Source: Thermococcus sp. 21S7
Lineage (GTDB): Archaea; Methanobacteriota_B; Thermococci; Thermococcales; Thermococcaceae
Length of the DNA stretch: 64,000 bases
Assembly: GCF_012027615.1 (NCBI RefSeq)
Contig: NZ_SNUT01000004.1
Span: 62,001-126,000 of the forward strand
Reading direction: 5' to 3'
Part shown: in pieces, positions 58,490 to 64,000 of the stretch
Numbering within the stretch: position 1 is the stretch's first letter
How the letters are laid out: every line of letters starts with the position of its first letter
Position numbers and translations under genes: made by a program
The notes under the pieces: generated by a model
Database searches by the model: none
The model's input: only the letters and a program-made list of their open reading frames with translations
Told to the model about the DNA's origin: nothing

Positions 58490-59737
58490 TCAGAGCTTCA
58501 CCAGGTGCACGGAGCAGGAGATGCACGGGTCGAACGCCCTGACGGTCTCCTCAAGCCTTCCTATCATCGCCCTTTCGTCGGCCTCGCCGTACAGCTTCCC
58601 CGCCTCCTCCAGTAGGCTGGTCTCCATCATCGCGTGGTTCAGCGCGGTTGGTGTGATTATATTGGAGTATGAGATCTTGCCCTCGCCGTCTATCCTGTAG
58701 TGGTGTATCAGAACACCCCTCGGGGCCTCGACGTAGCCTATTCCCTCGCCCTCCCTGGGCTCAACAGGGACGTTCTCCCCTTCGATGCCCCTGTCGAGAA
58801 GGGTCTTCGCTATCTCGTTTGCCCTCTCAAGGGAGTAGACGAGCTCTATCGCCTGGGCCAGGTTGTTGTAGCTGACGTAGCCGGTCTTCAGTTTCTCCCG
58901 ATGCTCTTCGAAGAGCCTCTTTGCTGTGGGGGTTAGCATCCCCGACTTGAGGAGCAGCCTCGGCAGCGCCCCAACAAAGAACGCCTCACCCTTGTAGCGG
59001 CTCTGCTTGGCGAAGCTGTAAACTAAGGAGCGCTCCTCTATCCTCTCCGTGTAGTGGAACTCCCCTTCCTCGTCAGAGACCAGCTTTTCACCCCAGAGGT
59101 AGCCGTCGGTGGCGACGAAGTGCCTCGCCTGGGCGCCGTAGGGCTCCAGCTGGGCGAAGAGCCTCACCGCTCTCCTTGCCAGCCTGAGGAGGGCTTCGCT
59201 TTCCTTCTCCACCCTCTCAAGCTCCTCCACCGTTGGATACCTGCCGAAGCCGCCGGGCTTGACGTTTATTCCGTGTATCTCCCTGCCGCCTACCATCACC
59301 CTTATCCTGTTGCCGAAGGCCTTCAGGGCGAGGCCCTCCTTCACCAGCTCCCCGTGCTTCGTGGCCATCCTTATGGCGTCGGGGTAGCCGAACACGTCCG
59401 GCGCAACGAGGAGGTACAGGTGCAGCGCGTGGCTCTCAAGCAGTTCGCCTATGAGTCCGAGCTCTCTGATGAGGGCTATCTCCTCCGGAACCTCAACGCC
59501 GAAGGCCCTTTCGATTCCTAGGACGGAAGCGACGCTGTGGGAGAGGTAGCAGATGGCGCATATCCTAGCCTCAAGGTCAGGAACGTCGTAGTAGTGCCTT
59601 CCAAGGGTCAGAAGCTCGAAGAATCTCGGCCCTTCGATGATCTTAAGCCTGACGTCCTTTACCTCGCCGTCCTCGATGACTATCTCGGCCTTTCCGTTGC
59701 CCTCAACGCGCGTGAACTCGCGGAGTTCGATTATCAT
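58490..59737 (-). CDS. Sulfhydrogenase II alpha (NiFe large) subunit
   Basis: ATG 59737 after GGTGGGAGCC, overlapping the delta stop by 4 nt; 415 residues. NiFe ligands are RICAICYLSHS (RxCxxC) near residue 60 and DPCISCSVHLVKL at the end (DPCxxC). Only four residues (LVKL) follow the final His, the short tail removed by the maturation protease. It holds the H2-activating site. Sequence matches the Pyrococcus SHII-type alpha. Confidence 0.95.
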   Translation of the reverse strand: MIIELREFTRVEGNGKAEIVIEDGEVKDVRLKIIEGPRFFELLTLGRHYYDVPDLEARICAICYLSHSVASVLGIERAFGVEVPEEIALIRELGLIGELLESHALHLYLLVAPDVFGYPDAIRMATKHGELVKEGLALKAFGNRIRVMVGGREIHGINVKPGGFGRYPTVEELERVEKESEALLRLARRAVRLFAQLEPYGAQARHFVATDGYLWGEKLVSDEEGEFHYTERIEERSLVYSFAKQSRYKGEAFFVGALPRLLLKSGMLTPTAKRLFEEHREKLKTGYVSYNNLAQAIELVYSLERANEIAKTLLDRGIEGENVPVEPREGEGIGYVEAPRGVLIHHYRIDGEGKISYSNIITPTALNHAMMETSLLEEAGKLYGEADERAMIGRLEETVRAFDPCISCSVHLVKL

Positions 59738-60471
59738 GGCTCCCACCTCGCGAAGGTCTTGAACTTCCTTACAATGTACTCGTCATCGTAGCCGAGGTCC
59801 TTGAGTATCTCGTACTCCCCGGCGGGGTTCACCTCGCCTGGCAACGGACCGCGGCAGCCGATGCATCCCAGACCCGAGCGCACGCAGACGGCGTTGCAGC
59901 CGCCGTAGGTTATCGGACCGAGGCACGGAAGGCCTTTCTTTACCAGCACGCACTCGTACTCGTTGAGCTTGCACTCAAGGCAGACGGGGTAGTCCTTCCT
60001 GACGGGCTCGATGCCCTTGGCTATGTCCATGAGCACCTGGTAGACCTCGTTTTTGTCGTACGGGCAGCCGGGCAGGGCAAAATCAACGGCTACGTATTCG
60101 ACGACCGGTTTGGAGTCGAGGGCACGCATCGGGTTGCCTTCGTCCCCGTAGACTGCCTTCAGCTTCTCCCTGATGGGGCGCTCAACGCTCGCCTGAACAG
60201 AGCCGTGGGTTGCGCAGGTTCCGAGGGCGATGAGGTACTCGGAGTGATTTCTTGCCTCTTTGAGCAGGTTCAGGTCGCGCTGGGTCGAGACGGTTCCAGT
60301 TACGAGGGCGACGTCGTAGTGGTTTCCCTCGCTGAGGCTCGTCGCCATGTGAAACTCGGTTATCTCGTAGAATTCGAGGATGTCGAAGAGCTTCTCGTAG
60401 AGGAAGAGCATGTTGAGGGCACAGCCGCCGCAGTCGGTAAGCTCGAAAACCCCCAGCTTGAGCTTGTCCAT
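59734..60471 (-). CDS. Sulfhydrogenase II delta (small) subunit
   Basis: 245 residues from ATG 60471 (ATG 60474 is adjacent). It carries the FeS electron wire: LTDCGGCALN (proximal-cluster cysteines), LGTCATHG, then PGCPYDKNEV, CLECKLNEYECV and the CNAVCVRSGLGCIGCRGP cluster. It delivers electrons from the NiFe site to the beta and gamma subunits. Stop and start overlap the neighbouring hydrogenase genes. The sequence is closest to SHII-type delta of Pyrococcus as I recall it. Confidence 0.94.
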   Translation of the reverse strand: MDKLKLGVFELTDCGGCALNMLFLYEKLFDILEFYEITEFHMATSLSEGNHYDVALVTGTVSTQRDLNLLKEARNHSEYLIALGTCATHGSVQASVERPIREKLKAVYGDEGNPMRALDSKPVVEYVAVDFALPGCPYDKNEVYQVLMDIAKGIEPVRKDYPVCLECKLNEYECVLVKKGLPCLGPITYGGCNAVCVRSGLGCIGCRGPLPGEVNPAGEYEILKDLGYDDEYIVRKFKTFARWEP

Positions 60472-61346
60472 CATATCAACCCCCTCGTGGAGAGAGCGTC
60501 CCAGTAGGTGAAGACCGGGCCGTCCTGGCAGATGTACTTCATGGAGACGCTGGTTCCGACGACGCAGTGGCCGCACTTGCCGACACCGCAGCGCATGCGC
60601 CTCTCCAGGGTCATGTAAATCCTGCCCGGTGAGAGCTTTCTGTCGAGGAGTTCCCTTATGACGAACTTGTACATGACCGGCGGGCCGCAGATGAGGGCGT
60701 ATGTGTTGTTAACGTCGAACTCCTCTCCCCTGAATAGGTCGGTGACGACACCCTTGCACACCCTGTCCGAGAAACCCTGTTCGAGGTAGATGCACGATGG
60801 GCTCTCAACCTCGTACGCCAGCTTTACCGAGCAGTTCATGGCCTCGCCGTGCTTCAGGAGGTGTATTATCTCGTCGCGGAAGAGTATGTCCTCGTAGGCC
60901 TTGGTTCCGTAGAGCAGCCAGACGTTCTCGTACTTGCCGGTGTCGATGGCGTACCAGAGCACCGAGCGTAGGGGTGCCATTCCGAGACCGCCCGCGACAA
61001 GGATTAGGTTTGAGCCTTCCATCTTCTCCATGGGGAATCCGTTTCCGTAGGGCCCGCGGATTCCCACGACGTCCCCTTCCTTCATCTTGTGGACGAACTT
61101 GGTCATCCTGCCGACCTTTCTGATGCAGAGCTGGAGGTAGCCCCTCCTTGTGGGTGAGGAGCAGATGCTTATCGGGAACTCTCCGAAGCCGCGGATGTCA
61201 ACGATGACGAACTGCCCCGGCTTGAAGTTGAACTTGGCCTCAACCTCGGGGTCGAGGAAGCGCAGTGTGAAGAGCTTCTCCCTCGACGTTAAGTCCTTCA
61301 CTTCGAGAATCCTTGCGTCGTACGTCTGGTACGGGTTCTCGCTCAT
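60471..61346 (-). CDS. Sulfhydrogenase II gamma (NAD(P)H/FAD) subunit
   Basis: 291 residues. FAD-binding ferredoxin-reductase fold: FNFKPGQFVIVDIRGFGEFP, then nucleotide site LVAGGLGMAPLRSVL and CGPPVMYKFVIRE. The C-terminal CGVGKCGHCVVGT binds a 2Fe-2S cluster. It exchanges electrons with NAD(P)H. Start overlaps the beta stop by 4 nt. Confidence 0.94.
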   Translation of the reverse strand: MSENPYQTYDARILEVKDLTSREKLFTLRFLDPEVEAKFNFKPGQFVIVDIRGFGEFPISICSSPTRRGYLQLCIRKVGRMTKFVHKMKEGDVVGIRGPYGNGFPMEKMEGSNLILVAGGLGMAPLRSVLWYAIDTGKYENVWLLYGTKAYEDILFRDEIIHLLKHGEAMNCSVKLAYEVESPSCIYLEQGFSDRVCKGVVTDLFRGEEFDVNNTYALICGPPVMYKFVIRELLDRKLSPGRIYMTLERRMRCGVGKCGHCVVGTSVSMKYICQDGPVFTYWDALSTRGLI

Positions 61347-62347
61347 TTCAGGGACCCCCTTACCTCCTCAAGAACCTTAACGTGCTCTATTTTCGCCGGG
61401 CAGAACTCATCGCAGCGGCCGCAGCCGACGCAGTTGTAGCCTGCGGTGGGGTCAAAATAGCTCTTGCAGTAGTATCTGTGCCTGAAGCGGTCCAATCGCG
61501 TGGGCCTGAAGTTGTGGCCTCCAGCGACGAGTCCATGGTTCTCCATGAAGCACGAGTCGTAGCGCCTCTCGCGCACCGAGCTGTATGCGTCCATCCAGCT
61601 GTCGCAGACCTCGTAGCAGCGGCACGTCGGGCAGACCATGTTGCAGTTGCCGCAGGCGAGGCATATCTCGGCGTACTTCTTCCACACCGGGCTGTTGTAC
61701 GCTAAATCGAGCATGTCGGCGAGGCCTTCCTGGGGGACTTCCTTCTGAAAGGCCTTCGCGCGCTTCTCCTCGAACTCCTTGAAGTTGGCGAGGTCCTCGT
61801 CGGTCACCTCCTCGAACAGCTCACCGTTCTCCCAGGCTATCTCGTGACCGCGGACGCTTCCGATTCTGACCAGCCAGCCGTCGGGAAGCTCGTGAAGAAA
61901 CAGGTCAAAGCCGTCCATTGCGAAGTGCGTTCCGAGGCTCTTGCAGAAGCAGTACTCGTCGGGCATACAGCTTATTCCTATTATTAAGGTCTTTTCGCGC
62001 CTGCTCTTGTAGTACGGGTCGGCAGGCTCGTCAAGGTACACCTTGTCGAGTATCTTAAGACCGTGGATATCGCAGGAATGGAGTCCAAAGAGAACCATCG
62101 GTTCTGCTTCGACTTCTTCCTCCCAGCGGCCGTTCTTCAGCCTGAGAATGGCCTCCTTTGGTCTGAAGAAGAACTTCTTCGGCGGGAGCATGGTTCTGTT
62201 GTAGTCCCGCGCCACCTCCGCCGGGTCGTGGACTTCCTGGAAAGAATAGATGCCGCCCTTCTTTACCGGGGCATACAGGGTACCCCAGGCCTCAAGTGAC
62301 TTGAAGAACCTCTCAAAGTTTTCGGAAGGTAGTTTTATGTATCTCAA
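61343..62347 (-). CDS. Sulfhydrogenase II beta (4Fe-4S) subunit
   Basis: TTG 62347 is preferred (MRYIKLPSENFERFFKSLEA), because GGTGAT-GCCC precedes it with standard spacing and the product then begins like known beta subunits; the upstream GTG/ATG give a longer frame. 334 residues. Two ferredoxin motifs: CLACGNCNMVCPTCRCYEVC and CVGCGRCDEFCPAKIEH. It is the first gene of the beta-gamma-delta-alpha operon and is divergent from the NuoE-like gene. Confidence 0.93.
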   Translation of the reverse strand: MRYIKLPSENFERFFKSLEAWGTLYAPVKKGGIYSFQEVHDPAEVARDYNRTMLPPKKFFFRPKEAILRLKNGRWEEEVEAEPMVLFGLHSCDIHGLKILDKVYLDEPADPYYKSRREKTLIIGISCMPDEYCFCKSLGTHFAMDGFDLFLHELPDGWLVRIGSVRGHEIAWENGELFEEVTDEDLANFKEFEEKRAKAFQKEVPQEGLADMLDLAYNSPVWKKYAEICLACGNCNMVCPTCRCYEVCDSWMDAYSSVRERRYDSCFMENHGLVAGGHNFRPTRLDRFRHRYYCKSYFDPTAGYNCVGCGRCDEFCPAKIEHVKVLEEVRGSLK

Positions 62348-62421
62348 GGGCATCACCGCCTCGAATGGGCTTGCAATTTTAAGTTTGTAAAGAATTGATT
62401 TAAGAATTTTTCAAACAAATG

Positions 62422-62444
62422 GTTGCCAACCAGATGTTACAAAC
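62422..62444. promoter_or_regulatory. SurR-type redox regulator binding site
   Basis: GTT-n3-AAC-n5-GTT occurs at 62422-62438, and it is extended by another n3-AAC to 62444. It matches the published Pyrococcus SurR consensus. It lies in the region between the hydrogenase operon and the NuoE/F genes, about 17 nt before the plus-strand TATA at 62461-62470 (GCTTATAAAC) and some 20 nt upstream of the likely minus-strand TATA (TTCTTAAATC, about 62397-62406). Confidence 0.75.
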
Positions 62445-62460
62445 TTGTACTTTAGTGCAC

Positions 62461-62470
62461 GCTTATAAAC
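62461..62470 (+). promoter_or_regulatory. TATA box for the NuoE/F-like operon
   Basis: GCTTATAAAC is 45 nt before the ATG at 62515, with a leader that includes GGTGAT. It lies just downstream of the SurR motif, the layout expected for activation. Confidence 0.6.
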
Positions 62471-62514
62471 ATTAACGTTGAAACTTTTCCGAAAAATCCT
62501 TGCGGTGATGCAAG

Positions 62515-62979
62515 ATGGAAGCCTCGTTCGATTACATGCGTTCTTATCCTCCGGAACCGAGTTCTCTAATCCCTCTTCTCCAGAGAACCCAGGAGCGCTT
62601 CGGTTACCTTCCAAGAGAGGCCCTGGAGGAGATTGCGAACTACCTCGGAATTCCGCTCAGCAGGGTCTACGGCGTGGCGACCTTCTACGCCCAGTTCAGG
62701 TTTGAACCCCTCGGAAAATACGTCGTGAAAATCTGCCACGGCACGGCCTGCCACGTAAACGGCGCCGTGAACATATCCCAGGCCATAACAGAGGAGCTTG
62801 GAATTGAAGAGGGGGGGACGACGGAGGACGGCCTCGTAACGCTGGAGCGCGTCGCCTGTCTCGGATGCTGCAGCTTGGCGCCTGTCATAATGATAAACGA
62901 CAAGGTCTTCGGCAAGCTCACGCCCGATAAAGTCAGGAAGCTGATGAGAAAGCTCAGGGAGGGGAAGCTCGATGTCTGA
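62515..62979 (+). CDS. NuoE-like 2Fe-2S subunit
   Basis: ATG 62515 with GGTGATGCAAG upstream; 154 residues. Thioredoxin-like fold: RTQERFGYLPREALEEIANY, then VATFYAQFRFEPLGK, with cluster cysteines CHGTACHVNGA and ACLGCCSLAPV. It is the 24-kDa-like subunit of NADH-linked oxidoreductases (HymA/NuoE). In Thermococcus this type works with NuoF-like, formate dehydrogenase or electron-bifurcating partners. It overlaps the following gene by 8 nt. Confidence 0.92.
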   Translation: MEASFDYMRSYPPEPSSLIPLLQRTQERFGYLPREALEEIANYLGIPLSRVYGVATFYAQFRFEPLGKYVVKICHGTACHVNGAVNISQAITEELGIEEGGTTEDGLVTLERVACLGCCSLAPVIMINDKVFGKLTPDKVRKLMRKLREGKLDV

Positions 62980-64000
62980 AATCAAGGCCATAGCGGTCGG
63001 CATGAACTCCTGTGGAATAGCTGCCGGCGCGAGGGAAACCTACGAGGCCATAAAGGCCGAGCTTGAGAAGAGGGGCATTGATGTCAAGCTCAAGATAGTA
63101 GGCTGCGTCGGTATGTGCTACCGGGAGCCCCTCGTGGACATCATCACTGATGATGAGATAATCACCTACGGCCACGTCGACCCCAAGAAGGTCCCCCGGA
63201 TTATAGAGGAGCACGTTATCAACGGAAAGCCCATAGAGGAGTGGATAGTCAAGCGCGACTGGTGGGAGAACGGCGAGAGGAAAACCTGGGACGTTGATGG
63301 CTACTTCTCCAAGCAGAGGAAGATAGTGCTCGAAAACTCCGGCTACATAGACCCCGAGAACATCGACGAGTACATTGCTGCCGGTGGTTATGAAGCCCTC
63401 AAAAAGGCCCTCAAAATGAAGCCCGAGGAGATAATAGACGTCATCACCAAGTCTGGGCTTCGCGGAAGGGGCGGCGCAGGATTTCCGACCGGTCTGAAGT
63501 GGAAGTTCGCGAGGGAGGCCAAGGGAGACGTGAAGTATATAGTCTGCAACGCCGACGAGGGCGACCCCGGAGCCTTCATGGACAGGAACGTCCTTGAGGG
63601 CGACCCACACCGCGTCATTGAGGGCATGATAATCGGCGCCTACGCGATCGGGGCTACAAAGGGCTTTATCTACGTGAGAGCAGAGTACCCGCTCGCCATA
63701 AGGAGGCTGAAGATAGCGCTGAAGCAGGCGCGGGAGAGGGGCTTCCTCGGCGAGAACATCCTCGGAAGCGGGTTCTCCTTCGACATCGTCATCAAGGAAG
63801 GAGCCGGAGCGTTCGTCTGCGGTGAGGAGACTGCTCTGATAGCCTCTATAGAGGGCAAGCGCGGAATGCCGAGGCCGAGGCCGCCCTATCCGGCCCAGAA
63901 GGGTCTCTGGGGCAAGCCCACCAACATCAACAACGTGGAAACGTGGGCGAACGTGCCGTGGATAATCAAGCACGGCTGGGAGGCCTACGCCTCGATAGGG
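62972..64000 (+). CDS. NuoF-like NADH-binding FMN/4Fe-4S subunit (partial at right edge)
   Basis: Starts at ATG 62972 and runs off the window. About 343 residues are visible. The N-terminal thioredoxin-like domain has cysteines in NSCGIAAGA and VGCVGMCYREP (a 2Fe-2S site). The main domain has the FMN/NADH motifs GLRGRGGAGFPTGLKWKF, CNADEGDPGAFMDR and GAGAFVCGEETALIASIEG, then GMPRPRPPYPAQKGLWG. The C-terminal 4Fe-4S part lies outside. It is the flavin entry point of an NAD(P)H-dependent complex. Confidence 0.93.
   Translation, partial: MSEIKAIAVGMNSCGIAAGARETYEAIKAELEKRGIDVKLKIVGCVGMCYREPLVDIITDDEIITYGHVDPKKVPRIIEEHVINGKPIEEWIVKRDWWENGERKTWDVDGYFSKQRKIVLENSGYIDPENIDEYIAAGGYEALKKALKMKPEEIIDVITKSGLRGRGGAGFPTGLKWKFAREAKGDVKYIVCNADEGDPGAFMDRNVLEGDPHRVIEGMIIGAYAIGATKGFIYVRAEYPLAIRRLKIALKQARERGFLGENILGSGFSFDIVIKEGAGAFVCGEETALIASIEGKRGMPRPRPPYPAQKGLWGKPTNINNVETWANVPWIIKHGWEAYASIG

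Follow-up and report, generated by a model that had tools for sequence, protein, structure and literature searches.

Positions 62348-62514 of the window, by which we mean the whole stretch of 64,000 nucleotides of Thermococcus sp. 21S7 DNA that was analysed, represent the full intergenic region between two divergently oriented operons, provided that hydB starts at the TTG codon at position 62347. This codon is the likely start of ShyB and is preceded by the sequence GGTGATG. The shyBCDA operon for sulfhydrogenase II (SHII) extends leftward from here, and the nfnCBA operon runs rightward past the end of the window:

58490-59734, minus strand: ShyA, alpha subunit of SHII, NiFe catalytic subunit (NF040828, above cut-off)
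59734-60474, minus strand: ShyD, delta subunit of SHII (NF040831, above cut-off)
60471-61346, minus strand: ShyC, gamma subunit of SHII (NF040830, above cut-off)
61343-62347, minus strand: ShyB, beta subunit of SHII, first gene of shyBCDA (NCBIfam NF040829, above cut-off)
62515-62979, plus strand: NfnC, NuoE-like, 154 aa, first gene of nfnCBA (PF01257)
62972-64000 and past the window end (L031 6973-8775), plus strand: NfnB, NuoF-like, 600 aa (PDB 9n5u_B, 1283 bits)
L031 8759-11635: NfnA, GltD/NuoG fusion, 958 aa by its longest open reading frame (PDB 9n5u_A, 1782 bits)

Since the NCBIfam models for sulfhydrogenase I scored below their cut-offs, while those for SHII (NF040828-NF040831) all scored above theirs, we rejected sulfhydrogenase I as the neighbour; SHII had also been named in an earlier reading of this DNA that used the sequence only. 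It is an established SurR target (PMC4463584); for T. kodakarensis, the same source reports no hydrogenase of this group other than an SHI homolog. The sequence-only reading had labeled the rightward genes a "NuoE/F operon". NuoE-like and NuoF-like genes are indeed present, but they share one operon with a GltD/NuoG fusion subunit (L031 6516-11635), and the operon is better named nfnCBA; its predicted product is the electron-bifurcating NADH/ferredoxin/NADP transhydrogenase NfnABC (Nfn-Bfu, Stn-like). Matches to PDB 9n5u are near full-length (residues 1-945 for 9n5u_A and 1-598 for 9n5u_B), and since its third gene, a GltD/NuoG fusion, matches NfnA of the PDB entry, we gave up the notion of a complex I remnant. 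Nfn-Bfu (NfnABC) has been purified from T. sibiricus, and coupled NADPH oxidation and reduction of NAD+ and ferredoxin has been shown for it (PMC9304861); its relatives include the Sporomusa enzyme Stn and the T. litoralis enzyme Nso (PMC7483475). At one further locus (L131, genome G014), NfnC lies inside a 753-aa open frame, as if it were an NfnC-NfnB fusion.

The SurR half-site array and its conservation

The intergenic region contains the following elements:

62383-62391, no strand assigned: GTTTGTAAA, differing from the short SurR site at one position, downstream of the SHII TATA element, conserved in 35 loci
62399-62412, minus strand: putative BRE (GAAAAA) and TATA element of the SHII operon, conserved
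62414-62444, no strand assigned: SurR half-site array AAC-n5-GTT-n3-AAC-n5-GTT-n3-AAC
62422-62430, no strand assigned: SurR core 1, GTTGCCAAC, hydrogenase-proximal, kept or degenerate depending on the genus
62436-62444, no strand assigned: SurR core 2, GTTACAAAC, nfn-proximal
62446-62459, no strand assigned: imperfect dyad TGTACTTTAGTGCA, situated after the array and before the nfn TATA element, conserved in nfnABC promoters with little variation
62462-62469, plus strand: putative TATA element of the nfnCBA operon

In a pattern search, the 31-bp array resolved into three overlapping perfect GTTn3AACn5GTT matches at 62414-62430 (minus strand), 62422-62438 (plus) and 62428-62444 (minus), and there was no other perfect match in the 64 kb window; shuffled windows contained on average 0.22 such matches, and none of 100 shuffles gave three. 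The motif GTT-n3-AAC-n5-GTT with a further n3-AAC, which the sequence-only reading had reported at 62422-62444, is present as GTTGCCAACCAGATGTT at 62422-62438 (plus) followed by AAC at 62442-62444, but the array is longer than had been recognized and has one more half-site leftward, the AAC at 62414-62416. The whole genome holds 38 GTTn3AACn5GTT matches, compared to 7 when the pattern is reversed as a control; the array of five half-sites is found only once, at this locus, and its control has no match. The two GTTn3AAC cores within the array are spaced 14 bp apart; the centre of core 1 lies 23.5 bp from that of the SHII TATA element, and the centre of core 2 lies 25.5 bp from that of the nfn TATA element. 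Both elements, TTCTTAAA at 62399-62406 (minus) and CTTATAAA at 62462-62469 (plus), are TATA-like, as had been proposed before. The putative BRE/TATA of SHII directly abuts the array, which is situated upstream of both elements, a position that fits activation.

The genome encodes a SurR ortholog of 240 aa (contig C7, L035 1607-2326) that matches PF0095 (PDB 2qlz) with 308 bits and keeps the redox CxxC (CTEC aligned to CMEC), which agrees with the earlier designation of the site as SurR-type. The surR gene is divergent from the gene for a Pdo-like protein, and a SurR site lies between them. Besides surR/pdo, intergenic consensus sites are found at the mbh operon, the mbs operon, an NSR-like gene (nsr), hypC and hypA, with the neighbour genes named by sequence inspection unless a family or structure search is given. 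The promoter of mbs, a SurR-repressed target, carries one SurR site upstream and one downstream. The sites at mbh, mbs, the NSR-like gene, hypC and hypA agree with published SurR targets (PMC10025317, PMC12162507). We regard binding of SurR to the 62414-62444 array as very likely. That another reader of the GTT/AAC array, e.g., a different ArsR-type factor, takes the place of SurR would be compatible with the extra conserved dyad at 62446-62459 in the nfn promoter and with the fact that SurR binding is predicted from sequence, but it seems highly improbable, since spacing and bases are those of the exact published SurR consensus and the same motif recurs at the surR/pdo, nsr, mbh, mbs and hyp genes of this genome.

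The dyad itself might be a local or second operator, or an unusual BRE region. In a scan of the genome, a relaxed pattern gave two exact matches and the strict dyad was found in two places; these matches had no common gene theme in the whole genome, and none was located at other promoters. Because the matches were few and without a common theme, the dyad appears to be specific for the nfn promoter, and we rejected it as the marker of a regulon of its own. The near-SurR short site GTTTGTAAA (62383-62391) may modulate SHII expression or be an initiator element. A scan for bacterial sigma-70 promoters gave no match in the region, a model that is not informative for archaea.

A search for NfnC (NuoE) in 94 genomes of the order, from which one 41% hit was left out, yielded 45 nfnABC loci in 44 genomes. 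The sequence-only reading had suggested looking for the site in other intergenic regions, and the array was found at all 45 of these loci; all five half-sites are present in 36 of them, while the second half-site reads GTG in the other 9. Core 1 is accordingly degenerate in 9 of the 45 loci, and core 2 is intact in every one. Among the 41 distinct sequences, 14 of the 15 half-site columns are invariant and all 16 spacer columns vary, with mean identities of 0.987 and 0.677, respectively (Fisher test, 5.7e-8, with columns taken as independent and the kinship of the genomes ignored); the regular-expression anchor fixes some half-site bases, and no locus failed it. The distance from the array to the nfn TATA element is 17 bp in 45/45 loci, and no SurR short site is present downstream of this element in any of the 45 nfnABC promoters. 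For relatives of NfnC in records that carry the label Thermoplasmata or Euryarchaeota (L044, L047, L049), the upstream 300 bases contain no site of the SurR type, which would fit a restriction of SurR to Thermococcales. At the locus L208 (G076:C5:544700-549000), the shared promoter is separated from the gene for SHII beta by about 0.9 kb of additional DNA, and the first ShyB residues are unmatched.

Loci without sulfhydrogenase II and loci with another transhydrogenase

Five genomes possess nfnABC without an intact SHII operon beside it. Two of them (the L204/L205 pair) have only SHII fragments (shyB and shyA; G018) or only a short and weak hydB (shyB) match (G027) next to an intact nfnABC promoter, and in the remaining three (G024, G049 and G057) nfnABC has neighbours other than SHII. 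Since the neighbour is the same in G049 and G057, these two were counted as one event, which leaves about four independent SHII losses. The array has kept its five half-sites in all five genomes, whereas the side with the SHII TATA element has been lost, altered or replaced. This retention is the best evidence for a role of the array at nfnCBA and indicates that the site would serve this operon in its own right; together with the other comparative data, it speaks for the earlier claim that the site serves both operons. The array might instead act on the hydrogenase only, with nfnCBA being constitutive and merely located in the same region, for SHII is the established target (PMC4463584) and a divergent neighbour need not respond; given the five genomes in which SHII is deleted or decayed and the intact nfn-proximal core 2 in all 45 nfnABC promoters, we consider this quite improbable.

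NfnS of the transhydrogenase NfnI (nfnSL) takes the divergent position in the 23 genomes that have SHII and lack nfnABC, an assignment backed by one tested member, which scored 536 bits against the beta subunit of P. furiosus NfnI. The SHII-NfnI promoters have an intact core in the array in 21 of 23 cases, and the long consensus occurs within 250 bp in 22 of 23. The NfnI small subunit (at least 75% identity) was found in 25 genomes, none of which is among the 44 with NfnC. Schut et al. describe that Thermococcaceae have one or the other transhydrogenase, NfnABC or NfnI (PMC9304861); beyond this, we find that NfnABC and NfnI lie on one and the same flank of the SurR operator. In the genus g4 and in G093 (L184, L185, L188, L191, L193), relics of the nfnABC promoter, namely the array and an ACTTTA block, precede nfnSL. 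These relics suggest that nfnABC may have been replaced by nfnSL in place.

Proposed mechanism and direction of regulation

We infer that the array is probably a bidirectional SurR operator with two cores, through which SHII and nfnCBA would be activated in the absence of sulfur. Core 1 would serve the SHII promoter (about 24 bp to its TATA element) and core 2 the nfnCBA promoter (about 26 bp). Without sulfur, reduced SurR would occupy both cores upstream of both promoters and help to recruit the transcription machinery, so that the enzymes for H2/NADPH exchange and for NADH/ferredoxin/NADPH exchange would be made together; with sulfur, oxidised SurR would leave the DNA and expression of both operons would fall. 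One core per promoter is proposed because core 2 is always intact at nfnABC, core 1 is sometimes degenerate, and only one of the two cores survives in the NfnSL arrangements. The GTG variant of core 1 in 9 of 45 loci counts against co-activation by one core per promoter.

SurR activates when bound upstream of BRE/TATA and represses when its site overlaps these elements (PMC12401011). By this rule, the lack of a downstream SurR site in 45/45 nfn promoters, compared to the mbs promoter that has one, favours activation of both operons, and a joint response to sulfur is plausible from the arrangement of the sites. SurR repression in T. kodakarensis is said to need an additional downstream site, as reportedly described by Hidese in 2017.

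The sign of the regulation on the nfn side, where activation is what we infer, is the least certain part of this model. NfnI, which occupies the same place elsewhere, is up on sulfur in three species in which SHII falls or is unchanged (PMC6981617, Table 2), and Nfn has been called SurR-negative (PMC8595942); nfnABC might for this reason be repressed as well. SurR would then produce reciprocal outputs from a shared operator, activating SHII and repressing nfnCBA, so that sulfur turns the hydrogenase down and the transhydrogenase up. The greater abundance of FNOR1 with sulfur in T. kodakarensis points the same way, but FNOR2 is more abundant without sulfur (PMC12016516), and both signs thus occur among transhydrogenases. 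Since, moreover, the array stops 17 bp upstream of the nfn TATA element and none of the 45 promoters has a downstream SurR site, unlike mbs, we judge reciprocal output to be unlikely. By analogy, one would also expect sulfur induction from the T. litoralis homolog, which was first purified as an NADPH-dependent sulfur/oxygen oxidoreductase (PMC7483475), and this speaks against co-activation. SurR targets in some species depart from the textbook response (PMC12401011).

Significance and relation to known systems

The ratio of NADH, NADPH and reduced ferredoxin is set by NfnABC. Were SurR to control this enzyme jointly with SHII, the sulfur switch would govern both the end point of the electrons (H2 or H2S) and their sharing between the carrier pools. 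We see an even chance that the SurR operator facing SHII is an old docking site where the unrelated NfnABC and NfnSL have replaced each other in place, each promoter having one core; the sulfur switch would then set hydrogenase and transhydrogenase together, whichever of the two enzymes is present. The in-place swap of unrelated transhydrogenases at one operator makes it possible to ask in a natural setting which of the two traits, regulation or enzyme chemistry, is the conserved one, and in the genomes that lack SHII the two promoters are separated.

That SurR controls SHII and NfnI is already known, and the widened hydrogenase regulon put forward in the sequence-only reading is only partly new, for SurR sites between SHII and NfnI have been tabulated (PMC8595942). 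We found no link between SurR and NfnABC in the searchable literature, a search outside which the SurR survey Lipscomb 2017 lies.

The predicted enzyme resembles Nfn-Bfu/NfnABC of T. sibiricus in its order of NuoE-, NuoF- and GltD/NuoG-like subunits and in the near full-length matches to both chains of 9n5u (PMC9304861), and it shares its gene order with Stn of Sporomusa ovata (PMC7483475). As far as their accessible text goes, both reports deal with the enzyme, and that of PMC9304861 makes no mention of SurR. With the SurR regulon of P. furiosus, T. kodakarensis, T. onnurineus, T. piezophilus and T. barophilus, the locus has in common the motif GTTn3AAC(n5GTT), a site upstream of BRE/TATA, hydrogenase targets and a CxxC-containing SurR; it differs in its five consecutive half-sites, its two cores between two divergent promoters and NfnABC as the proposed second target. 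The mbh promoter of the same genome (C5:204143-204167) possesses the AAC-n5-GTT-n3-AAC-n5-GTT-n3 geometry as well, but its last half-site is GAC, and the mbh site serves one operon and stands farther from its own TATA element. The closest arrangement is the SHII/NfnI (nfnSL) SurR site of T. piezophilus (A7C91_RS06200/RS06205; PMC8595942, Table 2), where a long SurR site likewise lies between the same hydrogenase and a divergent bifurcating transhydrogenase; at the locus studied here, the partner is the unrelated enzyme NfnABC instead of NfnSL, and an extra core stands beside the nfn promoter.
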